Virus record (IMG/VR): IMGVR_UViG_3300034141_000025
Span: 1-42,039 of that record
DNA length: 42,039 nt
Reading direction: 5' to 3' (one strand)
DNA from: a virus
Each line of letters opens with the position of its first letter. Position 1 is the stretch's first letter. The position numbers and the translations under genes are program-made. The notes under the pieces were generated by a model. The model did no database searches. It was not told the DNA's origin and saw only the letters and a program-made list of their open reading frames with translations. Positions 3,515 to 41,123 of this stretch are shown here, in pieces.

Positions 3515-3738
3515 GCGGCACCATTGGCGCGCGTGATGGCATCGCGGCCGGCGGCTGTTACGTTGTCATTGCCGTCTATCAAGCCGCGACGGCAAAGCGA
3601 AATAAAACAGCCGGCGGGCCAATGCGCGAGACCGGCGTTGCCGGACACAAGCGAAATCAAAAGCGCCGCTTGCAACTCCCCGCCGCATTCTTTGGCCAGG
3701 GTAAGAGTGTTAGCGTTTGAGCGGTTCGTATTCATGCG
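3488..3738. repeat. 30-bp direct repeat covering two gene starts
   Basis: Positions 3488-3517 and 3709-3738 match at 28 of 30 bases. Each copy encodes, on the minus strand, the start codon and the first residues MNTNRS[H/N]AN of two consecutive genes. The copies are 221 bp apart. After the repeat the two proteins differ completely, so only the initiation region was copied or kept. Confidence 0.75.
3511..3735 (-). CDS. small hypothetical protein, possible winged-helix fold (74 aa)
   Basis: The first gene after the strong leftward promoter, with an untranslated leader of about 30 bases. It starts MNTNRSNANTLTLAKECGGE. The second half (ISLCRRGLIDGNDNVTAAGRDAI) resembles the wing region of small winged-helix proteins, where a 'GLI...vT..Gr' pattern is common. 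That is a weak hint only. It could be a regulator of its own operon, whose promoter carries a dyad. Its start region is duplicated at the next gene. Confidence 0.6.
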   Translation of the reverse strand: MNTNRSNANTLTLAKECGGELQAALLISLVSGNAGLAHWPAGCFISLCRRGLIDGNDNVTAAGRDAITRANGAA

Positions 3739-3773
3739 ATGGCCTATTGGCGGGATGCGTGAGTGGAGTAGCG

Positions 3774-3802
3774 ATTAGATCAGGTCCGGCAAATAGTGTC
3801 AA
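3774..3802 (-). promoter_or_regulatory. sigma70 promoter of the leftward operon
   Basis: On the minus strand TTGACA (3797-3802) is followed by a 17-base spacer and TCTAAT (3774-3779), 11 of 12 consensus bases at ideal spacing. Transcription should start near 3767, about 30 bases before the ATG at 3735. The -35 box overlaps a dyad that may be an operator. Confidence 0.75.
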
Positions 3803-3821
3803 CAAAAAGCGTCAACTATTT
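3791..3821. promoter_or_regulatory. operator-like dyad over the -35 box (copy 1)
   Basis: AAATAGT (3791-3797) and its reverse complement ACTATTT (3815-3821) flank 17 bases that contain GTGTCAAC and GCGTCAAC. The dyad overlaps the -35 box. A second copy with the same arms and spacing lies at 4065-4095. This looks like a binding site for a dimeric regulator, inferred from symmetry and duplication only. Confidence 0.5.
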
Positions 3822-4009
3822 GCGTACAGTTTCCAATTTTCTACCGCATGCCTCATGGACATTTCAGCCAGGGAAGCCGCTAGCTTGCGGTATGACTCGG
3901 CAATGTGCGGCGCATTGCATTCATCGGCGCGCATCAGGAACCATTCAAGCCGTTTCGCTTCATCGCGCGTTTGTTTCACGATGCGGTTAGGGATAGGGTA
4001 GCGTCGCAT
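3812..4009 (-). CDS. small helical hypothetical protein (65 aa)
   Basis: A 65-residue, strongly helical and charged protein (MRRYPIPNRIVKQTRDEAKR to ENWKLYANS) with no membrane segment. Its last codons run into the dyad that overlaps the -35 box of the next promoter, so that promoter begins within or right after this gene. It is preceded by the second, weaker copy of the promoter-leader module. I do not recognise a family. A small regulatory or inhibitor protein would fit its size and position. Confidence 0.55.
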   Translation of the reverse strand: MRRYPIPNRIVKQTRDEAKRLEWFLMRADECNAPHIAESYRKLAASLAEMSMRHAVENWKLYANS

Positions 4010-4047
4010 TGGATGGCCTCATGGCGGGATGCGTGGATGCATTGGCA

Positions 4048-4076
4048 ATGCTCGCATGTGCCGTAAATAGTGTCAA
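4048..4076 (-). promoter_or_regulatory. degenerate second copy of the leftward promoter
   Basis: The minus strand carries TTGACA (4071-4076) and, 17 bases on, GAGCAT (4048-4053), only 3 of 6 matches to a -10 box. The flanks match promoter copy 1 at the -35/dyad and at a shared leader near GATGGCC, with the same 59-bp distance between these landmarks. It may be weak, activator-dependent, or dead. A dyad copy (AAATAGT 4065-4071, ACTATTT 4089-4095) overlaps it. Confidence 0.4.
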
Positions 4077-4098
4077 CAAAAAAGCGGAACTATTTTAA

Positions 4099-4440
4099 AT
4101 GAAGCTAAAGAGTCTAGCGTCCAGGTTAAAGCGTTCATCAGACCGGCTGGCCATGCGTGAAGGATGGCGTGCGCATGATGTGTCTGCCCATGCGCGTGGA
4201 TATGGACGGGAGTGGCAAGCCGCGCGGCTTGAGTTCCTAGCAGCTAATCCGCTTTGCATCCATTGTCAGGAAAGCGGACGCGTCCAGGCGTCCAGGGTTG
4301 TAGATCACATAGTCCCGCATTGCGGTGATAGGCGGCTGTTTTGGGATCGCGACAATTGGCAAGCGTTGTGCATTGCGTGTCATAACGGATGGAAGCAACG
4401 CATTGACCATGCAATGAAATACGGACGGGATGCTAGCTAG
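4099..4440 (+). CDS. HNH endonuclease, packaging-associated
   Basis: A 113-residue protein with an HNH/zinc-finger domain: C53-x2-C56, VVDHIVPH (residues 67-74, with D69, H70 and H74), N86, and C91-x2-C94 followed by H95. HNH proteins encoded next to terminase genes in HK97-like phages stimulate or carry out cos cleavage together with the terminase. Here it lies about 200 bases upstream of the small terminase and diverges from the leftward operon. The ATG at 4099 follows a poor ribosome site. A start at 4153 (MREGW) would keep the full domain and cannot be excluded. Confidence 0.85.
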   Translation: MKLKSLASRLKRSSDRLAMREGWRAHDVSAHARGYGREWQAARLEFLAANPLCIHCQESGRVQASRVVDHIVPHCGDRRLFWDRDNWQALCIACHNGWKQRIDHAMKYGRDAS

Positions 4441-4560: not shown

Positions 4561-4638
4561 TAGTTCGGGCAAACCGGCCGGCGAAGACCGCCGTTCCCGC
4601 ATGTGCGGATTTTTTTCCTCATTGACAGTAAGTGACTC

Positions 4639-5139
4639 ATGCCAAATTTGACCGAAAAACAGGCCGCTTTTGTGTCAGGCAAGCTTGCCGGACTGCCACA
4701 TCGCGAGGCTGTCATTCATGCTGGGTATAGCGAAATGGGCGCGGATCAGACTGCGACCAAGCTGATGCGGCACCCTGGCATCAAGGCGGCACTGAAAGCT
4801 GGCAAGCGCAAGGCACCGGCAGCGCGTGGTGACAGCGAACCGGAAGACGGCGAGGGCGAGAGCGCAATGCTCGCGCGCAATGCGATGCCGCGCAGCGAAT
4901 ACGAAGACCCGCGTGACTTCCTCATGGACATGATGAACCACAAGCAGTTGCCTATCGCCGTGCGCGGCAAGGCGGCGCTTGACCTCATGCCGTACATGCA
5001 CGGCAAGGTGGGCGAGAAAGGCAAAAAGGCGTCAGCCAAGGAACGCGCGCAGGACATTGCCAGTGGCGGCGAGGGCAGTAACGTGGTGGACGCGGGCGGG
5101 CGGTTCCGAACCAAGGCTGCACCGGGCGCGCGTAGGTAG
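4639..5139 (+). CDS. terS: terminase small subunit
   Basis: A 166-residue protein. Residues 1-55 (MPNLTEKQAAFVSGKLAGLP, then HREAVIHAGYSE and ATKLMRHPGIKAAL) form the N-terminal helix-turn-helix DNA-binding region typical of Terminase_2/P27-like small subunits. The middle is acidic, followed by a helical part and a basic tail (KKASAKERAQ). The protein binds phage DNA at the packaging start and activates the large subunit. It follows the HNH gene, but unusually is separated from the large subunit by two virion-protein-like genes. The ribosome site is weak (AGTAAG). Confidence 0.8.
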   Translation: MPNLTEKQAAFVSGKLAGLPHREAVIHAGYSEMGADQTATKLMRHPGIKAALKAGKRKAPAARGDSEPEDGEGESAMLARNAMPRSEYEDPRDFLMDMMNHKQLPIAVRGKAALDLMPYMHGKVGEKGKKASAKERAQDIASGGEGSNVVDAGGRFRTKAAPGARR

Positions 5140-5177: not shown

Positions 5178-5459
5178 GTGAACATCCTGCCCGTTGGTTC
5201 CACCCAAGCCTCATCTGCCGATCAGACCTTTGGTGCGACCGGCCAAGTTCTGCTGTTCCTGACCGACGCGGATGGCGGCTACTCGCCTGTCGATGCGCAG
5301 GTCAATGTCGAATTCAAAGCAGCATCCGGCGTGTATATGCGCCAAGCGATGCTGTCGTACGAGAAGTCCAGCATGCTCATCAGTGCCATTGCCGGCACGG
5401 TGTTTCGCGTGACGCGCATCGCTGGCACGGTGGGTGTTGACGCGCAGGGCAACGCGTAA
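5178..5459 (+). CDS. beta-rich hypothetical protein, possible virion component (93 aa)
   Basis: A GTG start follows a GGAG site six bases upstream. The 93-residue product (MNILPVGSTQASSADQTFGA to GTVGVDAQGNA) is Gly/Ala/Ser/Thr-rich with alternating hydrophobic residues, as in small beta-sandwich virion proteins. It has no membrane segment. It is coupled by a TAATG overlap to the beta-helix protein that follows, so the pair may form a unit such as an adaptor plus spike. The family is not recognised. Confidence 0.5.
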   Translation: MNILPVGSTQASSADQTFGATGQVLLFLTDADGGYSPVDAQVNVEFKAASGVYMRQAMLSYEKSSMLISAIAGTVFRVTRIAGTVGVDAQGNA

Positions 5460-7306
5460 TGAACAGTCCCATCGGTAGCCCATTCGCACCGCCCGTCCAA
5501 AGCGTTCTCGCACGCGCTGTGCGAAAGGCTATCGGTGGGGCGGCAAAGATTTTTGACTTCTACGTCGATTCCACGCGTCCTAATGACGCGGGTGACGGCC
5601 TGACGCCGGCCACTGCGAAGCGCACGATTGCCGCCGTGATGGCGCTTGTGACCGGCCCTGGCAAGTCCGTGGGTTTGGTACGCGGCTCACGGTGGACGGA
5701 AACGGTGCTTCCGGTCTTCGACATGAGCATCGGCGTTACTGACGGCGTTGGTGCGCCACCGGTATTCGATTGCCGCGACGTTGCTACCGGGTGGACGCGG
5801 CACGATCCTGGCGCGTTGCCGAACGTCTGGAGCGTTTCGTGGACGCGTAACGGACCTGTTACCGGCTCCGACGACATCGGTTTGTGGGTTGACGAAGTTC
5901 GTCCGCGCCTCGCGAACACGCTGGGTGACTTGAACACGGGTGGCGGGTGGTTTGTATTCCCCGGCGACTCGCGCGCTATCACTGCGACCATCTACGTACA
6001 CTCGACGGTCGATCCGAACACGGATGGCAAGGTCCGCAAGATCGCCAAGCGCAACAGCGGTTTCAACTGGCATCCGCAGACGAGCGCAAGCACTGCGGTT
6101 GTTGCGCTGGAAGGTCCGATTGAAGTTGTCGGTGCGCTTGGTCACTACAACGCTGTCGCGGCTGGCCCTGGGTCCGTCAAGAAAATCGTGGCGCGCGACG
6201 GACACATCCATCACTTCGTTTCGTGCGCGGCGCTCAGCGAAGACCTCGTTGCCACGGCAGCGCGTCCCCTCTCAGACGGCATCCCGTTCACTGCGTACCG
6301 TGCAAATGGCGTGGGGTTCGATGCAGTGCGGCGTCGCTGCCACGTTTTGATGCCGGGTGGCGCGGCGCGCGAACTGGACGTTGGCTTCCATGCGCATAGC
6401 TCGACGGGCAACGCGCTGATTGACAGTTTCACCATCGAAGCCTGCACGGTGCGTGGTCGGTCGGGCATGTCGGCGGGCGCGCTTGTCCAGACGGCCCGTG
6501 ACTTCTACTTTGAAGACCCCCACACGTACGGCGTCGATCTGAACGCCATGCTGACGACGGTTGAGCGTGGTCACATCCACGACACAGGCGAGACGCCCTT
6601 GAATGGCGCGAGCGTCGGCATCCGCAAGACCAATCCCGATGACGCCGTAAACACTGTCAGTGACATGTGCATCCGGTTGATGAAGGGTATTGGCGCGACG
6701 GGTGCCGGTACTGGCCGCTTGGTCTTCAACCGATGCTCCGTACGCGTTGGCTCCAATGGGTTCAACGGTGGCGTCATCACCTTGAATCGCTGCATCGTGC
6801 ATTCCGATGCTCGCGCGCTGTCGTTCATCGACCCAGGTTACATCGGTGACTACAACGTGTTCTTCCCGTTCCCCGGTCAAGGCGAGCCGTGGTTCCACCA
6901 TTCGACCAACGGCCTGACAACGTACAACTCGCTGGTCAACTGGCGCACCTGGACGGGGCAGGATGCGAACAGCGTATTCGTCAAGGAAGCCGATCAGACT
7001 TCCGGCAATCAGTACGCGTTCTGGCTTGGCGTCAAGAACGGCACGGGCGGTCCTGAAGTTGGAGACTTCCGCATCAATCCCGGCGCGCGTGTGTACGGCG
7101 ATGGCGGCGACGCGCCCGACACGGCCTATATCGGCACCTTCGTGGACGGTACGCCAATCACCTACGGCGGCGCGCAGGCGCACTACAACCACAACACGCG
7201 TTCCGTGGTCGCAGGACCGGTTACACGGCGTCCCACGCTGCCTGCGGTGGGCGACACGGCGGGCGAGCATGCGCTAGCGATGGGAACCTGGAACTTCTAC
7301 CCGTGA
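5459..7306 (+). CDS. beta-helix tailspike/fibre-like protein
   Basis: A 615-residue protein. After about 40 N-terminal residues it has FDFYVDSTRPNDAGDGLTPA followed by a Thr-Ile helix, the entry signature of right-handed parallel beta-helix proteins (pectin-lyase-like) such as phage tailspikes and surface depolymerases. The rest is rich in Gly, Asn, Val and short strands, as expected for helix coils; the C-terminus is a separate region. Likely roles are host polysaccharide binding or cleavage. Catalytic residues cannot be assigned by eye. It sits between small and large terminase, an odd place for a spike, and overlaps the terminase start by four bases (GTGA). Confidence 0.6.
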   Translation: MNSPIGSPFAPPVQSVLARAVRKAIGGAAKIFDFYVDSTRPNDAGDGLTPATAKRTIAAVMALVTGPGKSVGLVRGSRWTETVLPVFDMSIGVTDGVGAPPVFDCRDVATGWTRHDPGALPNVWSVSWTRNGPVTGSDDIGLWVDEVRPRLANTLGDLNTGGGWFVFPGDSRAITATIYVHSTVDPNTDGKVRKIAKRNSGFNWHPQTSASTAVVALEGPIEVVGALGHYNAVAAGPGSVKKIVARDGHIHHFVSCAALSEDLVATAARPLSDGIPFTAYRANGVGFDAVRRRCHVLMPGGAARELDVGFHAHSSTGNALIDSFTIEACTVRGRSGMSAGALVQTARDFYFEDPHTYGVDLNAMLTTVERGHIHDTGETPLNGASVGIRKTNPDDAVNTVSDMCIRLMKGIGATGAGTGRLVFNRCSVRVGSNGFNGGVITLNRCIVHSDARALSFIDPGYIGDYNVFFPFPGQGEPWFHHSTNGLTTYNSLVNWRTWTGQDANSVFVKEADQTSGNQYAFWLGVKNGTGGPEVGDFRINPGARVYGDGGDAPDTAYIGTFVDGTPITYGGAQAHYNHNTRSVVAGPVTRRPTLPAVGDTAGEHALAMGTWNFYP

Positions 7307-21490: not shown

Positions 21491-24400
21491 ACAATCTAAT
21501 TCGCGGCAGTGGCGGAAAGAGCGGCGAAGAAAGCCGTTCACCCATCGAAGCACCAGACAGCCTGCGCAGCGTCGCGTTTGCGCGCGTGCTTGACCTTGTG
21601 AGCGAGGGCGAGATTCAGGGGTTCGCCAATGCCGAGCAACCGCTTACGTGCATCTATTTCAACGAGACTGCTGTCGCCAACATCGACAACACCCTGAACT
21701 TCAAGAACCTGCAAATCGAGTTCCGTTCCGGTACGCAGACGCAGGGCTACATCAAGGGCTTTGACTCTACGGAGAATGAGATTGGCGTCGGCGTGGAGTT
21801 GAAGCACGACACGCCCTGGACGCAGCAGATCAGCAACATCAACATTGACGCCGTGCGCATCCGACTGAGCGTGCCGGCGCTGAGCCTTGTTGACACCGAG
21901 ACGGGCGACACCAAGGGCTACAGCATCCAGTACGCCATCGACCTGAACACCAATGGCGGCGGTTTCGTACAGGTGTTCCGCAGCGCGTTCACCGGCAAGA
22001 GTTCCAGCAAGTACGAGCGCACGCACCGCATTGAGTTGCCGCCGTCGCCTACTGGCTGGCAGGTCCGTGTGCGCCGCATCACGTTCAACACGGATGCCGG
22101 CAACATCCAGGACATGACCATTGTCGAGTCCTTCGCGGAAATCGTTGACGTAAAGCTGCGCTACCCGATGTCCGCTGTCGTGGCCGTGACCATCGACGCC
22201 GAGCAGTTCAACAACATCCCGTCGCGTGCGTACCGGCTCAAGGGTCGCATCATCCGCGTGCCGAGCAACTACGATCCGGTGACGCGGCTCTATAGCGGCA
22301 TCTGGAATGGCACCTTCAAGCCGGCGTACAGCAACAACCCGGCGTGGGTGTTCTACGACATGGCGACCAACAAGCGGTACGGCTTGGGTAAGCGCGTGCC
22401 GGAAAACTTGATTGACAAATGGGCGCTCTACGCAATTGGCGTCTACTGCGATGAGTTGGTGCCGGATGGTTTCGGTGGAACGGAGCCGCGCTTTACCTGC
22501 AATATCTATCTGCAAACGCAAGCCGATGCGACGCGTGTCATGCAGGATTTGGCCACCGTGTTCCGTGGCATCCAGTACGTGTCGGGCGCAGCGTTGACGG
22601 CGGTTGGCGATATGCCGCAGGACGCGATCTACACGTACACGCGCGCCAACGTCATCGACGGGCGTTTCACCTACGCTGGCAGCAGCCAGAAAGTGCGGCA
22701 CACGACTGCGCTGGTAACGTGGAACGACATGAACAACTTTGGCCGCGCCAAGGTTGAGTACGTCGAGGATGAGGAAGGCATCGCGCGCTACGGCGTGCAG
22801 CAGACCGAAGTGGTCGCGATGGGCTGCACTTCGCGCGGGCAGGCACGCCGCCTGGGGCGCTACATCCTGGCCACCGAACGCTACGAGACGGACACGATCA
22901 CTTTTGAAGTGGGGCTTGACGGCACCATCGTTGCGCCGGGTTCCATCATCGCCGTGTCCGATCCGCTGCGTGCAGGCCGGCGCATGGCGGGACGCATCGC
23001 GGGCGGCACTGCCAGCGTGTTGAAGGTCGATCAGTTGCCCGAGAACGTCGCGTTCGGTGACAAGCTGACGATCATCCTGCCGTCAGGCATGCCGCAGATG
23101 CGCATTGTCACGACGGTCAACGCGCTGACGCGCGAGATTACTGTCAGTGCGCCATTCTCCGACGCGCCGCAAGTCAATTCCGTGTGGCTTGTCGAGACGC
23201 TGAACGTCAACGCGCAGACCTATCGCGTTATCTCCGTTGCCGAAAAGGAACAGACCAAGTACGTCATCACGGCGTTGCAGCATGTCCCCGGCAAGTACGA
23301 TTACGTCGAGTTGGACATTCCGATTGACGAGCCGCCGATCAGTGACAGCGATGCTGTGCTGCGCGCTCCGACGTTTGTCACCTTGCAGAATGCCGTGCAA
23401 TACAGCCACGACACGGCGCACAACGTCATCACCGCATCGTGGGAGAACGTGCCGGGTGCGACGAAGTACGACATCCAGTGGCGCAAGAGTGATGGCGCGT
23501 GGACGGCACCGATCCGCAAGAGTGAGAACACCGACGATTGGGAAGGTGCGTTCGCGGGCAGCTACATCGTGCGCGTCGCGCCAGTGAATGCGCGTGGCAT
23601 CGTCGGCAAGCACGCTACGTCCGAGCAGATCACGGTGGGCGATCCGGTATTGCCGATTGTAAACTTGGCGATCAATGACGGCGTGGTCATCGTTGACTGC
23701 CGTTTCGCGCAGTTCCGTTTGCTGCTGGACGAAGACGTTACGCTGGTGCTGTTCACCAACGTCGCGCCGCAAGACACCATCCTCATCGAAGTCACGATGG
23801 GCGGCAACGGCATGCACACGATGGCGCTTGGCTCAAGCGTCGTGCCGATTGACGGCTTGCCGTACGTGCCGACCGCTGCTGTAGGCGCTACGGATGTGCT
23901 GGGCCTGACCACCACGAACCAGGGCGGCACATGGCGCATGGCGTTGCAGAAAGCCTTTGGCGGCGGCACGCCGCTGACCGCTACGATCACGCCTGATCCA
24001 ATCTCCGCGTCGCATGTGAGCGCGCCTAGTGCTCCAGTCACAGTGACGATGGCGGGCGGCACAGGTCCGTACACGGCGATTTGGTCGCGTACCGACGACA
24101 CCCCTGGCACCACGTTCCTTATCGCCAACGGAAATACGTTAACGCCGACGCTTTCGATGCCGGCTGGCGACACCTACGCGTACATGGCGCAGACATGGGC
24201 TGTGCTGGTTACGGATACCGCTACCGGCTTCGTTGCGCAGGCGTCCGTCAACGTCATCTTTGAGCGCACGCCGGCTGACGGTGGTGGCGAGACGGGCGTA
24301 TTCCAAGCCAGCATCAATGGTGACTTCTACGGTTCGTGCCATGCTACGGGCGGCAATCCCTGTTCGCCCGCGACCACGGTTACGGCAAGCCCCATCGGCG

Positions 24401-34121: not shown

Positions 34122-34214
34122 GGGTGGCTCCGTTGGGTGGTTGAGGTGGCGTGCTTGCCACGGAGCGGACGTTAGCCCATGATTGACACCATTGCAACCC
34201 CCGGAGAGAAAAAA
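34122..34214. promoter_or_regulatory. divergent control region of the early genes
   Basis: This 93-bp gap separates the leftward replication operon (start 34121) from the rightward early genes (start 34215). For the rightward side TTGCCA (34155-34160), 17 bases, and CATGAT (34178-34183) match 9 of 12 consensus bases. For the leftward side TTGACA boxes lie at 34216-34221 and 34238-34243, but no good -10 box follows at 16-18 bases. A third TTGACA, on the plus strand, is at 34183-34188. Confidence 0.45.
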
Positions 34215-34412
34215 GTGTCAACAGTCGAATGGGAAAGTGTCAACGGCCCGGTACAGCCGGCGTTCGGGCTGGATGTGCTGGTTTTCAGCGAGGTCACGGG
34301 CGAGTGGGACAAGGGCCGGCGTATCGGTACGGGCTGGGTCCACAAGGACAGCACGCCGTTCCGCGCCGCAACACATTGGCGGTTCTTCGTCGCACCGGAT
34401 GCGACGCCATGA
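34215..34412 (+). CDS. small DUF551-like protein (65 aa)
   Basis: The GTG at 34215 follows GGAGAG by six bases, the best ribosome site in the area; an ATG at 34179 would lie inside the predicted -10 box. The 65-residue protein has LDVLVFSEVTGEWDKGRRIG and ends THWRFFVAPDATP, matching the DUF551 pattern ('VL.......W', then 'THW...P.P') of small phage proteins. Function is unknown. Its stop overlaps the next start (ATGA), and the next gene is a second protein of the same type. Confidence 0.6.
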   Translation: MSTVEWESVNGPVQPAFGLDVLVFSEVTGEWDKGRRIGTGWVHKDSTPFRAATHWRFFVAPDATP

Positions 34413-34618
34413 AGACGACGCAACTTGAGTGGTACACGCTGGGCGAAAAGTTGCCGCCGACTGGCGAAGACGTAGTGTTCATCGTCAAATACAAGGGCGG
34501 ACACGCGCTGATGTTCGGTATGTACCACGCGGATCGCAAAGTATTTTACGTAGATGATGGCAACATAATTACCGACGGCATTTTCATGTGGGCCGAAGTG
34601 AAGGACTACCCTCTGTGA
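34409..34618 (+). CDS. small DUF551-like protein, second copy (69 aa)
   Basis: A 69-residue protein starting MKTTQLEWYTLGEKLPPTGE. The W...LPP.GEDV opening and final FMWAEVKDYPL fit the DUF551-type pattern. Together with its upstream neighbour it forms a tandem pair, possibly an old duplication. Its stop overlaps the GTG of the helicase, so all three are probably translated as one unit. The function of this family is unknown to me. Confidence 0.6.
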   Translation: MKTTQLEWYTLGEKLPPTGEDVVFIVKYKGGHALMFGMYHADRKVFYVDDGNIITDGIFMWAEVKDYPL

Positions 34619-36300
34619 GCCGTCTGCGTGGCTTCCAGAATGAAGTAAAGCAACAGGCGTACGCCGCGTGGGCAGCGGGCGCGAAGGTTGTCATGCCGGT
34701 CATCCCCACGGGTGGTGGCAAGACCGTGCTGATGGGTGACGTTGCGCGCGAGTACGCCGGGTTCGGGTGTGCCGTGGCGCATCGTGCAGAACTCGTATCG
34801 CAGATCAGCGTGGCGCTTGCGACGGAAGGCGTGCGGCACGACATCATTGCGCCGACCAACACGGTACGTGCCATCGTTGCGGAACACATGCGCGAGACGG
34901 GGCGCAGCTACTTTGACAGCCGTGCGAAGTGGCGCGTTGCATCCGTTGACACGCTGCTGCGTCGCGACCTTGATAGCAACTGGACGCGTCAGGTGGGCAT
35001 GGTCTTTCAGGACGAAGGGCATCACGTACTGGAAGACAACAAGTGGGGCCGCGCGTTTGCGCTGTTCCCCAACGCCTATGGGTTCTTCCCGACCGCTACG
35101 CCGCTGCGCGCTGACGGCAAGGGATTGGGGCGTGGCCAAGGCGGGCTAGTCGATGCCCTGGTAGTCGGTCCCGGCATGCGCTGGATGATTGACCAAGCGT
35201 ACCTGACCGACTACGAGATTCGCGCGCCCAAGGTCGAAGACCTGGAACTTGATGACATCAAGGTTGGCGACAACGGCGAGTTCGGTGAGGAAGCGCGCCG
35301 CCGCGTCAAGCAATCGACGCGTATCGTCGGTGACGTAGTTCAAACGTATCTCACATACGCGCGTGGTAAACGCGGCATCACCTTCGCGGTTGACATTGAG
35401 CATGCCGACAAGATCGCTGCCGAATACAACGCCAACAACATTCCTGCCGTGGTGGTGCATGCCAACACATCCGACGCCGACCGACTCAAGCACATGCGCG
35501 AGTTCCGTGAAGGCAAGTTGTTGCAGTTGGTCAACGTCGATCTGTTCGGTGAGGGCGTGGACGTTCCCGCATGCCAGTGCGTGAGCATGGCGCGGCCGAC
35601 CGCATCGTATGGGCTTTACGTGCAGCAGTTCGGGCGTGCGCTGCGTCTGATGATTACCAAGCTGCAAGCGCAAATGTGGGACAGCTTTGACGTTGCGACG
35701 CGCAAGCACATCCTGGCGCAGAGCGAGAAGCCTGTTGCCATGATCTTTGACCACGTAGGCAACGTGATTCGCCACGGTGGACCGCCCGACTGGCGCAAGG
35801 GTGATTGGTCACTGGAAGCACGCTCGCGCAAGCAACGCGCTACAGACGGCATCCCGACGCGTGTATGCGTTTCGCCCATGTGCCAGCAGCCATACGCACG
35901 CATGCTGCCGCAGTGTCCGTACTGCGGCGTCGAGCCGCCACCACCGGCTGACCGTAGCCGTCCCGAGTTTGTCGATGGGGACATGGTGCTTTACACGCCG
36001 GAACTGTTGAAGGAACTGTTCGGTGCGATTGACAAGGTTGACGGCCCGCCGCATCTGCCGATGAATGTAGGACGGCCCGCTGCGGTCAGTATCCTGCGGC
36101 GTCATGCGGAACGGCAGGATGCACAACGCATGCTGCGCGAGACGATGGAACTCGTATTGCCACCCAATATGGATGAACGCGTGGCCAACCGGCGGTTCTT
36201 CCTTGACTTTGGCATTGACACACTTTCGGCAAAGGCGTTAGGATCAGCCGACGCGTTAAATTTACGTCAACGAATCATAGACAAGGTGACAGCGAAATGA
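34615..36300 (+). CDS. SF2 DNA/RNA helicase with zinc finger
   Basis: A 561-residue superfamily 2 helicase. Motif I PTGGGKT (31-37), motif II DEGHH (133-137, a variant of DEAH), motif III TATPLR (160-165), and in the second RecA domain LFGEGVDVP and QQFGRALR (motifs V and VI). After the core a four-Cys zinc finger reads CVSPMCQQPYARMLPQCPYC (about residues 412-431). It is the best candidate for the replicative or recombination helicase. No separate primase is visible in the window. The start is a GTG overlapping the upstream stop. Confidence 0.88.
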   Translation: MSRLRGFQNEVKQQAYAAWAAGAKVVMPVIPTGGGKTVLMGDVAREYAGFGCAVAHRAELVSQISVALATEGVRHDIIAPTNTVRAIVAEHMRETGRSYFDSRAKWRVASVDTLLRRDLDSNWTRQVGMVFQDEGHHVLEDNKWGRAFALFPNAYGFFPTATPLRADGKGLGRGQGGLVDALVVGPGMRWMIDQAYLTDYEIRAPKVEDLELDDIKVGDNGEFGEEARRRVKQSTRIVGDVVQTYLTYARGKRGITFAVDIEHADKIAAEYNANNIPAVVVHANTSDADRLKHMREFREGKLLQLVNVDLFGEGVDVPACQCVSMARPTASYGLYVQQFGRALRLMITKLQAQMWDSFDVATRKHILAQSEKPVAMIFDHVGNVIRHGGPPDWRKGDWSLEARSRKQRATDGIPTRVCVSPMCQQPYARMLPQCPYCGVEPPPPADRSRPEFVDGDMVLYTPELLKELFGAIDKVDGPPHLPMNVGRPAAVSILRRHAERQDAQRMLRETMELVLPPNMDERVANRRFFLDFGIDTLSAKALGSADALNLRQRIIDKVTAK

Positions 36301-36808: not shown

Positions 36809-36987
36809 AGGTACACATGGTTTGCTACAACGCCCTGGGTGCATGCGCAGTGGCCAGCAGCGGCAAGGATACGAACGCGCCTGCCATCTACGCAGATGAG
36901 GATGCCGCCAACGCGCGCCGCGATGAACTGATCGCTGCGAACGGCAATGGCGCAGAGTTCGTGGTCATAGGAGTCGAGCCGCTGTGA
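36805..36987 (+). CDS. small hypothetical protein (60 aa)
   Basis: A 60-residue protein starting MKVHMVCYNALGACAVASSG. It has a strand-helix-strand pattern, with IYADEDAANARRDELIAANG as the helix and FVVIGVEPL as the last strand. Similar short proteins report in many phages as hypothetical. Both ends overlap neighbours (ATGA upstream, GTGA downstream), which supports translation. No function can be assigned. Confidence 0.55.
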   Translation: MKVHMVCYNALGACAVASSGKDTNAPAIYADEDAANARRDELIAANGNGAEFVVIGVEPL

Positions 36988-37478
36988 ACCTGTCAACGTG
37001 GGCAAAGAAATGGAACGTGCCGGATGAGGCGTTGCTTGATCTGCGCACGCAGCTTGGGTTGATGCACTTTGCGGTCGAGCCTTCCATCAAACCCACGGGC
37101 AAGCACGGCAGCGAAACCCGTCAGCAGGATTTGGTGCGCCTGGAAGCGCCTACAAAGAACGTGTGGTTGACACGAAACAACGTGGGCGCTCTAATTGATG
37201 ACAGAGGCGTGCCGGTGCGGTACGGCTTGTGGAATGAATCGAAGCAACAAAACACCGTGACAAAATCGTCGGACCTAATTGGTATCAAGCCGATACTCAT
37301 TGGTCCGCATCATGTAGGTCAGGTGATCGGTCAGTTCGTCGCGCGCGAAATGAAGCACGAAGGCTGGCACTTTACTGGCGACAAGCATGAGCAAGGACAG
37401 TTGAATTTCATCAACTTCGTACTGGCAAAAGGCGGCGATGCGGCATTCGCAACCGGGCCGGGATCATTTGACCCATAG
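36984..37478 (+). CDS. VRR-NUC-type nuclease
   Basis: A 164-residue protein starting at a GTG overlapping the upstream stop. After a short N-domain, NVWLTRNNVGALIDDRGVPV, SSDLIGI (D97), FVAREMKHEGW (E122, K124) and GQLNFINFVLAKGGDAAF (Q139) give the VRR-NUC arrangement of the PD-(D/E)XK fold. Phage VRR-NUC proteins are thought to resolve branched DNA or act with a helicase. The helicase four genes upstream is a natural partner. The catalytic residues look complete. Confidence 0.8.
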   Translation: MNLSTWAKKWNVPDEALLDLRTQLGLMHFAVEPSIKPTGKHGSETRQQDLVRLEAPTKNVWLTRNNVGALIDDRGVPVRYGLWNESKQQNTVTKSSDLIGIKPILIGPHHVGQVIGQFVAREMKHEGWHFTGDKHEQGQLNFINFVLAKGGDAAFATGPGSFDP

Positions 37479-37489
37479 GGAGAACTGCA

Positions 37490-38116
37490 ATGCCCAAGAT
37501 CGTTGATACACGCGCAACACTGCTAGCCCAGGCTGCAAAGCTTACGGGCAAGTTCGGCTCCACCAACCTGACGCGACGCATGGTGGCGAAAGCTGCCGGT
37601 GTGAGCGACGGACTCGTCACGCATCACCTTGGCAACGTCGAGGAAATGCGCAAGCTGGCCAAGCGTGAAGCGAAGCGGCTCAACATCGTGGAACCGGACA
37701 AGGCGAAGCAAGAGGCAATCGGCGTCAAGCTCCGTGCGCACGGGCCGCGTGAGGCGACGCGCAAGGCTGCTGCCAAACGCGAAACCATCGCGGTGAAAAA
37801 GTCCGCTGCTACGAAAAAGTCCCCTGCGAAGGTAAGCAAGGTGGCCGCAAAAAAGTCTGTGGCTGTCGCGAAGAAAGCAACTGCGCCTGCCAAGCCATCA
37901 CGCTCGCGTGCAGTCGCGAAACGGGCTTCGCCTGTTGACACGCTGTACGTTGCCGCGTCGTCCCTGCCCGTTGAAGTGCCACCGCCGCGCATCCAGGTTG
38001 ACGGTGCGAACGCCAAGCCTGTCAGCGCCGCACGTGCGCCTAAGGCACCGCCCATCCCCGTGCCGATCCCGACGCCGCCGCAGGTATCAGTTGTGAGCGG
38101 CGAAGTCCAGCACTAA
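37490..38116 (+). CDS. TetR-type HTH protein with histone-H1-like tail
   Basis: A 208-residue protein. Residues 5-60 (TRATLLAQAAKLTGKFGSTN, then LTRRMVAKAAGVSDGLVTHH) match the N-terminal helix-turn-helix of TetR regulators. The usual TetR ligand domain is missing. Instead residues 85-145 are Lys/Ala/Ser-rich (TKKSPAKVSKVAAKKSVAVA) like histone H1 or bacterial H1-like proteins, followed by a Pro-rich acidic-free end. It could be a DNA-compacting or transcription-silencing protein. The gene is last before a strong terminator. I infer DNA binding; partners and targets are unknown. Confidence 0.7.
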   Translation: MPKIVDTRATLLAQAAKLTGKFGSTNLTRRMVAKAAGVSDGLVTHHLGNVEEMRKLAKREAKRLNIVEPDKAKQEAIGVKLRAHGPREATRKAAAKRETIAVKKSAATKKSPAKVSKVAAKKSVAVAKKATAPAKPSRSRAVAKRASPVDTLYVAASSLPVEVPPPRIQVDGANAKPVSAARAPKAPPIPVPIPTPPQVSVVSGEVQH

Positions 38117-38143
38117 GTTCCGGCGCGATCCGTTGCGTGCCTG

Positions 38144-38170
38144 ACCCCGGTCTTTTGGCCGGGGTTTTTT
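38144..38170 (+). terminator. intrinsic terminator
   Basis: A stem ACCCCGGTC/GGCCGGGGT (one T-G wobble) with a four-T loop is followed by TTTTTT. It ends the early operon after the TetR/H1-like gene, just before a new promoter. Confidence 0.9.
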
Positions 38171-38174
38171 ATTG

Positions 38175-38203
38175 TTGACACTTCTCTGCGCACGGGTTAT
38201 TGT
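38175..38203 (+). promoter_or_regulatory. sigma70 promoter for the right-end genes
   Basis: TTGACA (38175-38180), a 17-base spacer and TATTGT (38198-38203) match 10 of 12 consensus bases. The start would be near 38210, with a GGGGAGA ribosome site and the ATG at 38229 right after. It lies directly behind a strong terminator, which fits a new transcription unit. Confidence 0.75.
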
Positions 38204-39915: not shown

Positions 39916-41123
39916 GTGATCCCAACGTAGAAGCCGTACGGCGCAAGCTGGAAGAACGGTCGGCGGTCGGCATTGCAAAGTACGGCACCACGACAGCGCG
40001 TGATGATCTGACGCTGCGGGAATGGTTGGTGCATCTGCAAGAGGAATTGATGGACGCTGCGGTGTATATCGAAGCTGCGTTGTCACAACCAACACCCACG
40101 CTCGCGCAGTTCACGCGCGCCACTAGCGCAGCGACCCACAACCATCTGTGCGCATCGCGCTACAGGCATCGTGACGGTCGGCCGTATACGTGCAACTGCG
40201 GTGGTGCGCAGGCACGCGAGGACACCCCTGCGGCGGTGGATGCGCTGCGGGTCGATCATGCCATGGTCGATGCAGGGGCTAAGGCGCTCGCGGAATTGAT
40301 CGGTGGACACCCGGAACACTGGGTCCAGTACCGCAACGAATCACGCGCGTGTCTTGCTGCCGCCCTCGCAGCACCCCACCCGCCCGAGGCCGCGCCACAT
40401 GAGGGCGATGAGGCGGTGCAGCGATTCCGCAAGCGGCCGGTGGTTATCGACGCGATGCTGTTTGACGGAACAGCCGAGGCCGCGTCAGTCATAGCCCGAT
40501 GGGCGAACGCGGGCGACGCACCGGACGACGACCCCACAGTCAGCTATTTGGTCAGCGACGCCGAACCGGGGCGCGCGTTCGACATGGTGATTCAGACGCT
40601 AGAGGGCGGAATGTCGGCCAGCGTTGGCGACTGGATCATCCGGGGCGTAAAGGGCGAGTTCTATGCCTGCAAGCCCGACGTTTTCGCGCTCACCTACGAG
40701 ACGAAAGCCACACCCCCGGCCGCGCAGGCGAGCGACACGGGACGCGGCGAGGCGATTCCGAATGCCGAGGAAGGCGACTTCGATTGTCCAAGGGCCGCAG
40801 CCGCCCGTGCCTGCCCGTGCGGATTCTGCCGCGCACTCACCCACCCGGCGATGCAGGCGAGCGAGGGGGCGGATAGCGCGCGGCCTGCGTTCCAGCGCGG
40901 CGACCGCGTGATGCGTCAAAACGAGCATGGTGCCCGTTGGCCGGTGACGATTCGACGCGCCGAGACGCGATGGTCGAACGGCGTCGGATACGTGTACTAC
41001 GACGTGAAAGACGACGACGGCACCAAGCGTTGTGGCGTACCGGCTAACGAGCTTCGCGCGCCCGATGAACTGGACCTCCGCGCAGCCGCCCGCGCCACAC
41101 AGGAGCCGCGCCGTGATCTTTGA
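39912..41123 (+). CDS. three-module phage protein: MazG-like, RKKPV-type and SH3-like parts
   Basis: A 403-residue fusion. Residues 1-58 (VEAVRRKLEERSAVGIAKYG, then LREWLVHLQEELMDAAVYIE) match the N-terminal part of MazG-like or 'E-helix' phage proteins. Residues about 168-265 (RFRKRPVVIDAMLFDG, then GDWIIRGVKGEFYACKPDVF) are a small phage domain often found alone. The end (RGDRVMRQNEHGARWPVTIR to DDDGTKRCG) resembles an SH3-like barrel. Linkers are Ala/Pro-rich and GC-richer than neighbours, suggesting recent shuffling. Functions of the last two modules are unknown. Confidence 0.7.
   Translation: MSDPNVEAVRRKLEERSAVGIAKYGTTTARDDLTLREWLVHLQEELMDAAVYIEAALSQPTPTLAQFTRATSAATHNHLCASRYRHRDGRPYTCNCGGAQAREDTPAAVDALRVDHAMVDAGAKALAELIGGHPEHWVQYRNESRACLAAALAAPHPPEAAPHEGDEAVQRFRKRPVVIDAMLFDGTAEAASVIARWANAGDAPDDDPTVSYLVSDAEPGRAFDMVIQTLEGGMSASVGDWIIRGVKGEFYACKPDVFALTYETKATPPAAQASDTGRGEAIPNAEEGDFDCPRAAAARACPCGFCRALTHPAMQASEGADSARPAFQRGDRVMRQNEHGARWPVTIRRAETRWSNGVGYVYYDVKDDDGTKRCGVPANELRAPDELDLRAAARATQEPRRDL

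Follow-up and report, generated by a model that had tools for sequence, protein, structure and literature searches.

Classical TetR repressors (PF00440) contain a helix-turn-helix (HTH) fold and a ligand-binding/dimer domain. The HTH fold is common to the phage protein described here, whereas the ligand/dimer domain is absent from it. By its sequence, this protein (mini-TetR) belongs to a known, uncharacterised phage family, phrog_8723 ('putative TetR regulator'), whose members in many phages have a ResIII helicase and a phrog_93 nuclease as neighbours. Relatives in named phages were often labelled 'putative TetR transcriptional regulator' and showed the gene order helicase, nuclease and mini-TetR. 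A single HTH was present in Klebsiella phage JD001 (92 aa) and Pseudomonas phage Psp6, and a tandem HTH in Shewanella phage SppYZU01 and Acinetobacter phage Scuro (about 166 aa). Outside this family, disordered Lys/Ala/Pro-rich tails were described for AlgP and PhaF of Pseudomonas, and the tail of AlgP contains 25 perfect KPAA repeats over 154 aa (PMC9239181). CarD of Myxococcus xanthus is a transcription factor in which a disordered basic DNA-binding tail boosts activity, and HMGA- and H1-like domains were functionally equivalent in CarD according to work cited in the same study (PMC4374960). In the literature searched, we found no account of a phage TetR protein that has an H1-like tail, none of Stenotrophomonas phage Silvanus, and no target or mechanism for phage 'TetR regulators' devoid of a ligand domain.

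In our study, the mini-TetR gene was found in a viral DNA stretch of 42,039 nucleotides, the whole of which is called the window. The right half of the window showed no DNA similarity to named phages by megablast. A 615-aa ORF without PHROG or Pfam match was present at 5459-7306, just ahead of the large terminase gene. The features of the mini-TetR operon were as follows.

34588-36300, plus strand: ResIII/Helicase_C DNA helicase (family matches), same operon as mini-TetR
36984-37478, plus strand: phrog_93 endonuclease (phrog_93 match), directly upstream of the mini-TetR gene and conserved beside mini-TetR genes
37490-38116, plus strand: mini-TetR gene with a basic tail, an ORF of 208 aa with an ATG start
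37505-37675, plus strand: TetR-type HTH unit, residues 6-62
37676-37741, plus strand: conserved post-HTH segment, residues 63-84 (EPDKAKQEAIGVKLRAH)
37742-37939, plus strand: Lys/Ala-rich, H1-like disordered tail, residues 85-150
37940-38113, plus strand: Pro-rich C-terminal region, residues 151-208
38042-38056, plus strand: conserved K-x-P-P-[IL] motif, residues 185-189
38143-38166, plus strand: intrinsic terminator closing the operon, a 10 bp stem followed by a T-run
38175-38203, plus strand: sigma70-type promoter TTGACA-17-TATTGT of the next operon

The endonuclease is presumably VRR-NUC-like. The mini-TetR ORF was preceded by the Shine-Dalgarno-like GGGAGA. The match to phrog_8723 (4.5e-8) extended over residues 6-95 and covered the HTH unit, whereas Pfam recognised TetR_N at residues 11-51 (E=2.7e-4) with 21.1 bits, which for this protein alone is just below the Pfam cut-off of 24 bits. 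A profile of 18 family members matched TetR structures in the PDB with a best E-value of 1.4e-11, over the N-terminal ~60-90 residues only. The AlphaFold2 model contained a four-helix HTH unit (helices 7-22, 29-36, 40-47 and 50-63) with a pLDDT of 90-96 at residues 11-70, followed by more helices up to about residue 103; beyond that, the confidence was low except at residues 181-200. Nearly all of the 50 best Foldseek matches in the PDB were named TetR-family regulators, aligned over ~45-85 residues with E-values from 7e-3 to 9e-2, and these modest values (best 6.6e-3) are probably due to the mostly disordered query. The original prediction of a TetR-type HTH was borne out by all of these matches and by the structure model. 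Its further claim that the C-terminal ligand-binding/dimer domain is missing was confirmed as well, since the PDB and Foldseek matches ended after the HTH and the remainder was predicted to be disordered.

The segment that follows the HTH (residues 63-84) was kept in the four tail-bearing relatives and loosely in the tailless ones. The next 66 residues contained 27% A, 21% K, 11% S, 9% R and 8% P, with a net charge of +17; their 16 Lys compare with at most 9 per 66-residue stretch in any other ORF of the window. This tail was predicted to be disordered (pLDDT about 50-56). The original prediction had described a single 60-residue Lys/Ala/Ser/Pro tail of the histone H1 type, of which the composition held and the length did not: the post-HTH region is 124 residues long, and its Lys/Ala part is followed by 58 Pro-rich, almost neutral residues, which the first reading of the sequence had missed. 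In the alignment of the four relatives, the K-x-P-P-[IL] motif was present in every tail-bearing protein, within a region where the pLDDT rose to 74-82 (residues 181-200). Across the four phages the sequence of the tail drifted, while its composition and its net charge (+14 to +24) were kept. Drift in a basic tail whose end motif is conserved would fit a flexible linker that binds DNA and leads to a docking motif, and the conserved Pro-rich C-terminus is probably such a motif.

Three architectures were found at one locus, namely one HTH, two HTHs, and one HTH followed by a basic tail. The last was present in the window phage, IMG/VR 34141 (L005), Silvanus gp044 (L001/L035) and IMG/VR 5289 (L015). 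The domain pair, for which the original prediction had suggested a search in phage proteins, occurred in three relatives, at the same locus and with HTH, basic tail and K-x-P-P-[IL], which argues that the architecture is not due to chance. Silvanus gp044 (QYW02518.1, 'hypothetical protein') resembled the window protein in its HTH, basic tail, K-x-P-P-L motif, position at the operon end and terminator, whereas the two proteins were only 38% identical and a different operator-like word was present at matching places. The regulators of JD001, SppYZU01 and Scuro likewise contained a homologous HTH, were devoid of a ligand domain and were located downstream of helicase and nuclease; they end after one or two HTHs, whereas the window protein adds the basic tail and the Pro-rich C-terminus. 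Tandem TetR-HTH proteins were encoded at the same phage locus as follows.

L002, 5767-6267: tandem TetR-HTH protein
L018, 6001-6501: tandem TetR-HTH protein
L007, 4776-5279: tandem TetR-HTH protein
L024, 1430-1942: tandem TetR-HTH protein

The AlphaFold2 model of a tandem member contained two HTH units, and the linker at about residues 56-71 was weakly predicted. The second HTH and the tail may reasonably be regarded as alternative means by which an HTH devoid of the TetR dimer domain gains further DNA contacts.

For membership in phrog_8723 we chose, as a criterion of our own, a gene position next to the replication-module helicase and nuclease, and both of these were present beside the gene in the window. 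At 14 viral loci, which were found by searching with the neighbouring nuclease and not with mini-TetR, a mini-TetR ORF was located downstream within about 2 kb in 13. No close protein relatives were found in bacterial genomes by these scans, and the plasmid matches were rejected as relatives, being merely weak similarities to TetR HTHs. Enc34 ORF2, a 'putative transcriptional regulator' of a related replication module, was also rejected because the family profile did not match it. Most of the tailless relatives contained a sigma70-like promoter with 17-bp spacing close upstream of the gene. Some of these promoters contained palindromes, such as TTGACG-aacccggcactacgggt-TAGTAT in SppYZU01, and a 9-bp perfect inverted repeat was present over the -10 element of the mini-TetR promoter in L010. 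To judge from the sequences, an own promoter with palindromes is the layout of self-regulating repressors.

The mini-TetR gene was expected to end the operon in front of a strong terminator, and it does so in the window, with the terminator in the matching place in Silvanus and L015. In the closest relative (L003, IMG/VR 34141, 4609-4860), an extra 83-aa ORF overlapped the mini-TetR stop ahead of the terminator. The promoter after the terminator was found at the same place in L005, Silvanus and L015.

In the Silvanus genome, the decamer GGGTTTCACT was found at 11 sites with at most one mismatch, against 2.05 expected. Nine of the 11 sites were located at most 70 nt upstream of annotated gene starts (p=3e-8), a compartment that makes up 9.5% of the genome, and so were all six exact copies (p=7.5e-7). 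The decamer was identified through its genome excess and its copy at the promoter after mini-TetR, so that this one copy is not independent in the location test, whereas the remaining copies are. An inverted pair of sites 36 bp apart (29804/29840) was present at the start of the helicase operon, a 28-bp imperfect palindrome (34011/34029; shuffles, 9/200) covered the promoter that comes right behind the mini-TetR terminator, and the sites at 44730 and 45263 were located between the -35 and -10 elements of two leftward promoters. Some sites (29840, 32104) were in leaders and not on promoters. The L015 contig repeated the pair, the palindrome and the 32104 site at the same places. A second motif, AACCTGTAACC, was rejected as a dispersed operator, being a local repeat block; its repeats were found in both orientations at 40855-41068, between the primase and endolysin genes, and are possibly an origin or late control region. 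A further word of the Silvanus genome, CGCCAGGG, was found in 31 copies against 3.3 expected, all of them in coding sequence.

The Silvanus decamer was absent from the window and from L005. The over-represented word of the window was GTTGACAC(T); the 8-mer was present in 14 copies against 1.7-3.4 expected, about half of them in coding sequence. The 9-mer GTTGACACT was found at six sites against 0.46 expected, and five of the six (34214, 34236, 38174, 3795 and 4069) were at regulatory positions matching those of Silvanus, with the copy at 38174 beginning the promoter after the terminator. The operator-like sites at the other positions were as follows.

34183-34189, plus strand: TTGACAC where the helicase operon starts, forming an inverted pair with 34214-34222 at a distance of 32 bp
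34214-34222, minus strand: GTTGACACT where the first gene of the helicase operon starts, kept in L020
34236-34244, minus strand: GTTGACACT, 22 bp from the 34214 site, with one mismatch in L020
3795-3803, minus strand: site in the leftward promoter TTGACA-17-TCTAAT, with an ATG ORF 60 nt downstream
4069-4077, minus strand: site in a second leftward promoter-like copy, 60 nt upstream of an ATG ORF

TTGACAC was exact in L020 at five of the eight aligned places, compared with 17.8% for all aligned 7-mers (binomial ~0.006, by hand). The word GTTGACACT was absent from Silvanus and L015, and the cross-lineage controls were zero. At matching places, among them the operon start and the promoter after the terminator, the tail-bearing phages thus contained dispersed operator-like sites that are specific to each lineage. 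An own repeated site per lineage at matching positions is what would be expected if the operator had changed along with the regulator. No convincing palindromes were found at the window promoter. The region 3735-4110 of the window contained two leftward promoter-like leaders with a common GTTGACACTATTT and a leader end ATCCCGCCA..AGGCCATC before the ATG; the two leftward promoters of Silvanus had a similar leader, CCGCC...GAGGCCAAC. No homology was found between the leftward early proteins of the window and of Silvanus, the promoter and leader layout alone being common. In SppYZU01 and JD001 no dispersed motifs stood out. Ahead of its terminase genes, Pseudomonas phage Psp6 (L039) contained clustered ATCTCTATC at 24042-24060 and 24240-24255, where one pair of copies made up a perfect palindrome.

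Mini-TetR is a candidate owner of these sites because it was the only recognised HTH (among the 20 small Silvanus proteins checked, with no other HTH recognised among the window proteins checked), its gene lies between two sites, and its operon begins at one. The sites may instead belong to another, unrecognised phage regulator, or be only sigma70 elements of the host, with the targets of mini-TetR elsewhere. A family match is lacking for many small phage proteins, and Pfam-type searches can miss DNA-binding proteins, so that another protein could own the candidate sites. The window word also contains the sigma70 -35 consensus hexamer TTGACA, and some of its copies may be mere promoter elements; no -10 element was seen by inspection at the right distance from 34214 and 34236. 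The Silvanus decamer, however, is not a sigma70 element, and in both lineages such sites stand on either side of the mini-TetR operon, which makes this alternative unlikely, though one to be taken seriously.

A role in replication, in which the protein would bind near the origin and aid the helicase, nuclease and primase encoded in its module without promoters as its target, is suggested by the constant helicase and nuclease neighbours and the often close primase. The repeated sites, however, were scattered over several promoters and leaders and did not form one cluster, and we regard this role as improbable.

Improbable to about the same degree is a nucleoid-type function, in which a weakly specific HTH and an H1-like tail would coat or bridge DNA, silence the host or organise phage DNA for packaging. 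The composition of the tail and its net charge of +17 agree with it, and AlgP and PhaF tails of such type bind DNA (PMC9239181). The window tail is disordered and Lys/Ala/Pro-rich as in AlgP and PhaF, whereas it contains no KPAA in its 66 aa and the folded part of the window protein is an HTH. The shortness of the tail, its lack of KPAA arrays and the absence of any tail in most family members speak against this function, and the dispersed promoter sites favour sequence-specific control. For the coating or compaction of DNA in the original prediction no supporting evidence was found, and the comparisons point instead to control of the phage early promoters; nothing was found that links the protein to host DNA, as host-gene silencing would have it, and no evidence pointed to a packaging switch.

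An activator that drives the shift to the next gene set, such as the post-terminator operon, is the least probable of these readings: promoter sites are compatible with either sign and the Silvanus sites 29840 and 32104 lie in leaders, off promoters, but sites between the -35 and -10 elements of near-consensus promoters better suit occlusion.

We therefore favour, with moderate confidence, an early-gene regulator that binds lineage-specific operators, probably as a repressor, with a tail that adds DNA affinity. The comparative evidence, namely the HTH-only relatives, the sigma70-like promoters before most of them and the lineage-specific repeats at matching positions, points to sequence-specific control of early promoters that belong to the phage. 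The gene that closes the early helicase-nuclease operon would encode a transcription regulator with a TetR-type HTH and no ligand/dimer domain, which would bind a short lineage-specific operator at the early sigma70 promoters of the phage itself. Binding would most likely repress these promoters, among them those of the mini-TetR operon itself (feedback) and of the operon that follows it. As a disordered extension, the Lys/Ala tail would bind DNA non-specifically and thereby increase the DNA affinity of a single HTH, and so would do the job of the dimer domain in ordinary TetR proteins, for which the second HTH seems equivalent in the tandem relatives; palindrome binding is less obvious for a protein without a dimer domain. 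CarD may serve by analogy as a precedent for a basic disordered tail boosting a transcription factor, whereas its folded domain binds RNA polymerase and not DNA, and its tail contains AT-hooks, unlike the window protein (PMC4374960). The tail may also allow sliding or spreading of the protein along the DNA around its sites, which is a mild form of the coating first proposed. A wider reading, which we offer as speculative and rather unlikely, is that, in a regulator design specific to phages, the TetR dimer domain can be replaced interchangeably by a basic H1-like tail or by a second HTH, that the operators co-diverged at fixed positions of the early regulon, and that the tail may spread the protein, so that one factor represses and organises the genome.

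The HTH part is not unique, as the family is already annotated in many phages; to our knowledge, the operator proposal for the tail-bearing variant is new. Phage 'TetR regulators' without a ligand domain are common, and short operator sequences and a promoter map are here proposed for the tail-bearing form. One HTH, two HTHs and an HTH with a tail at one locus form a natural comparison for a DNA reader without a dimer domain, and, if the proposal is true, an H1-like tail would act as an affinity booster in a virus.
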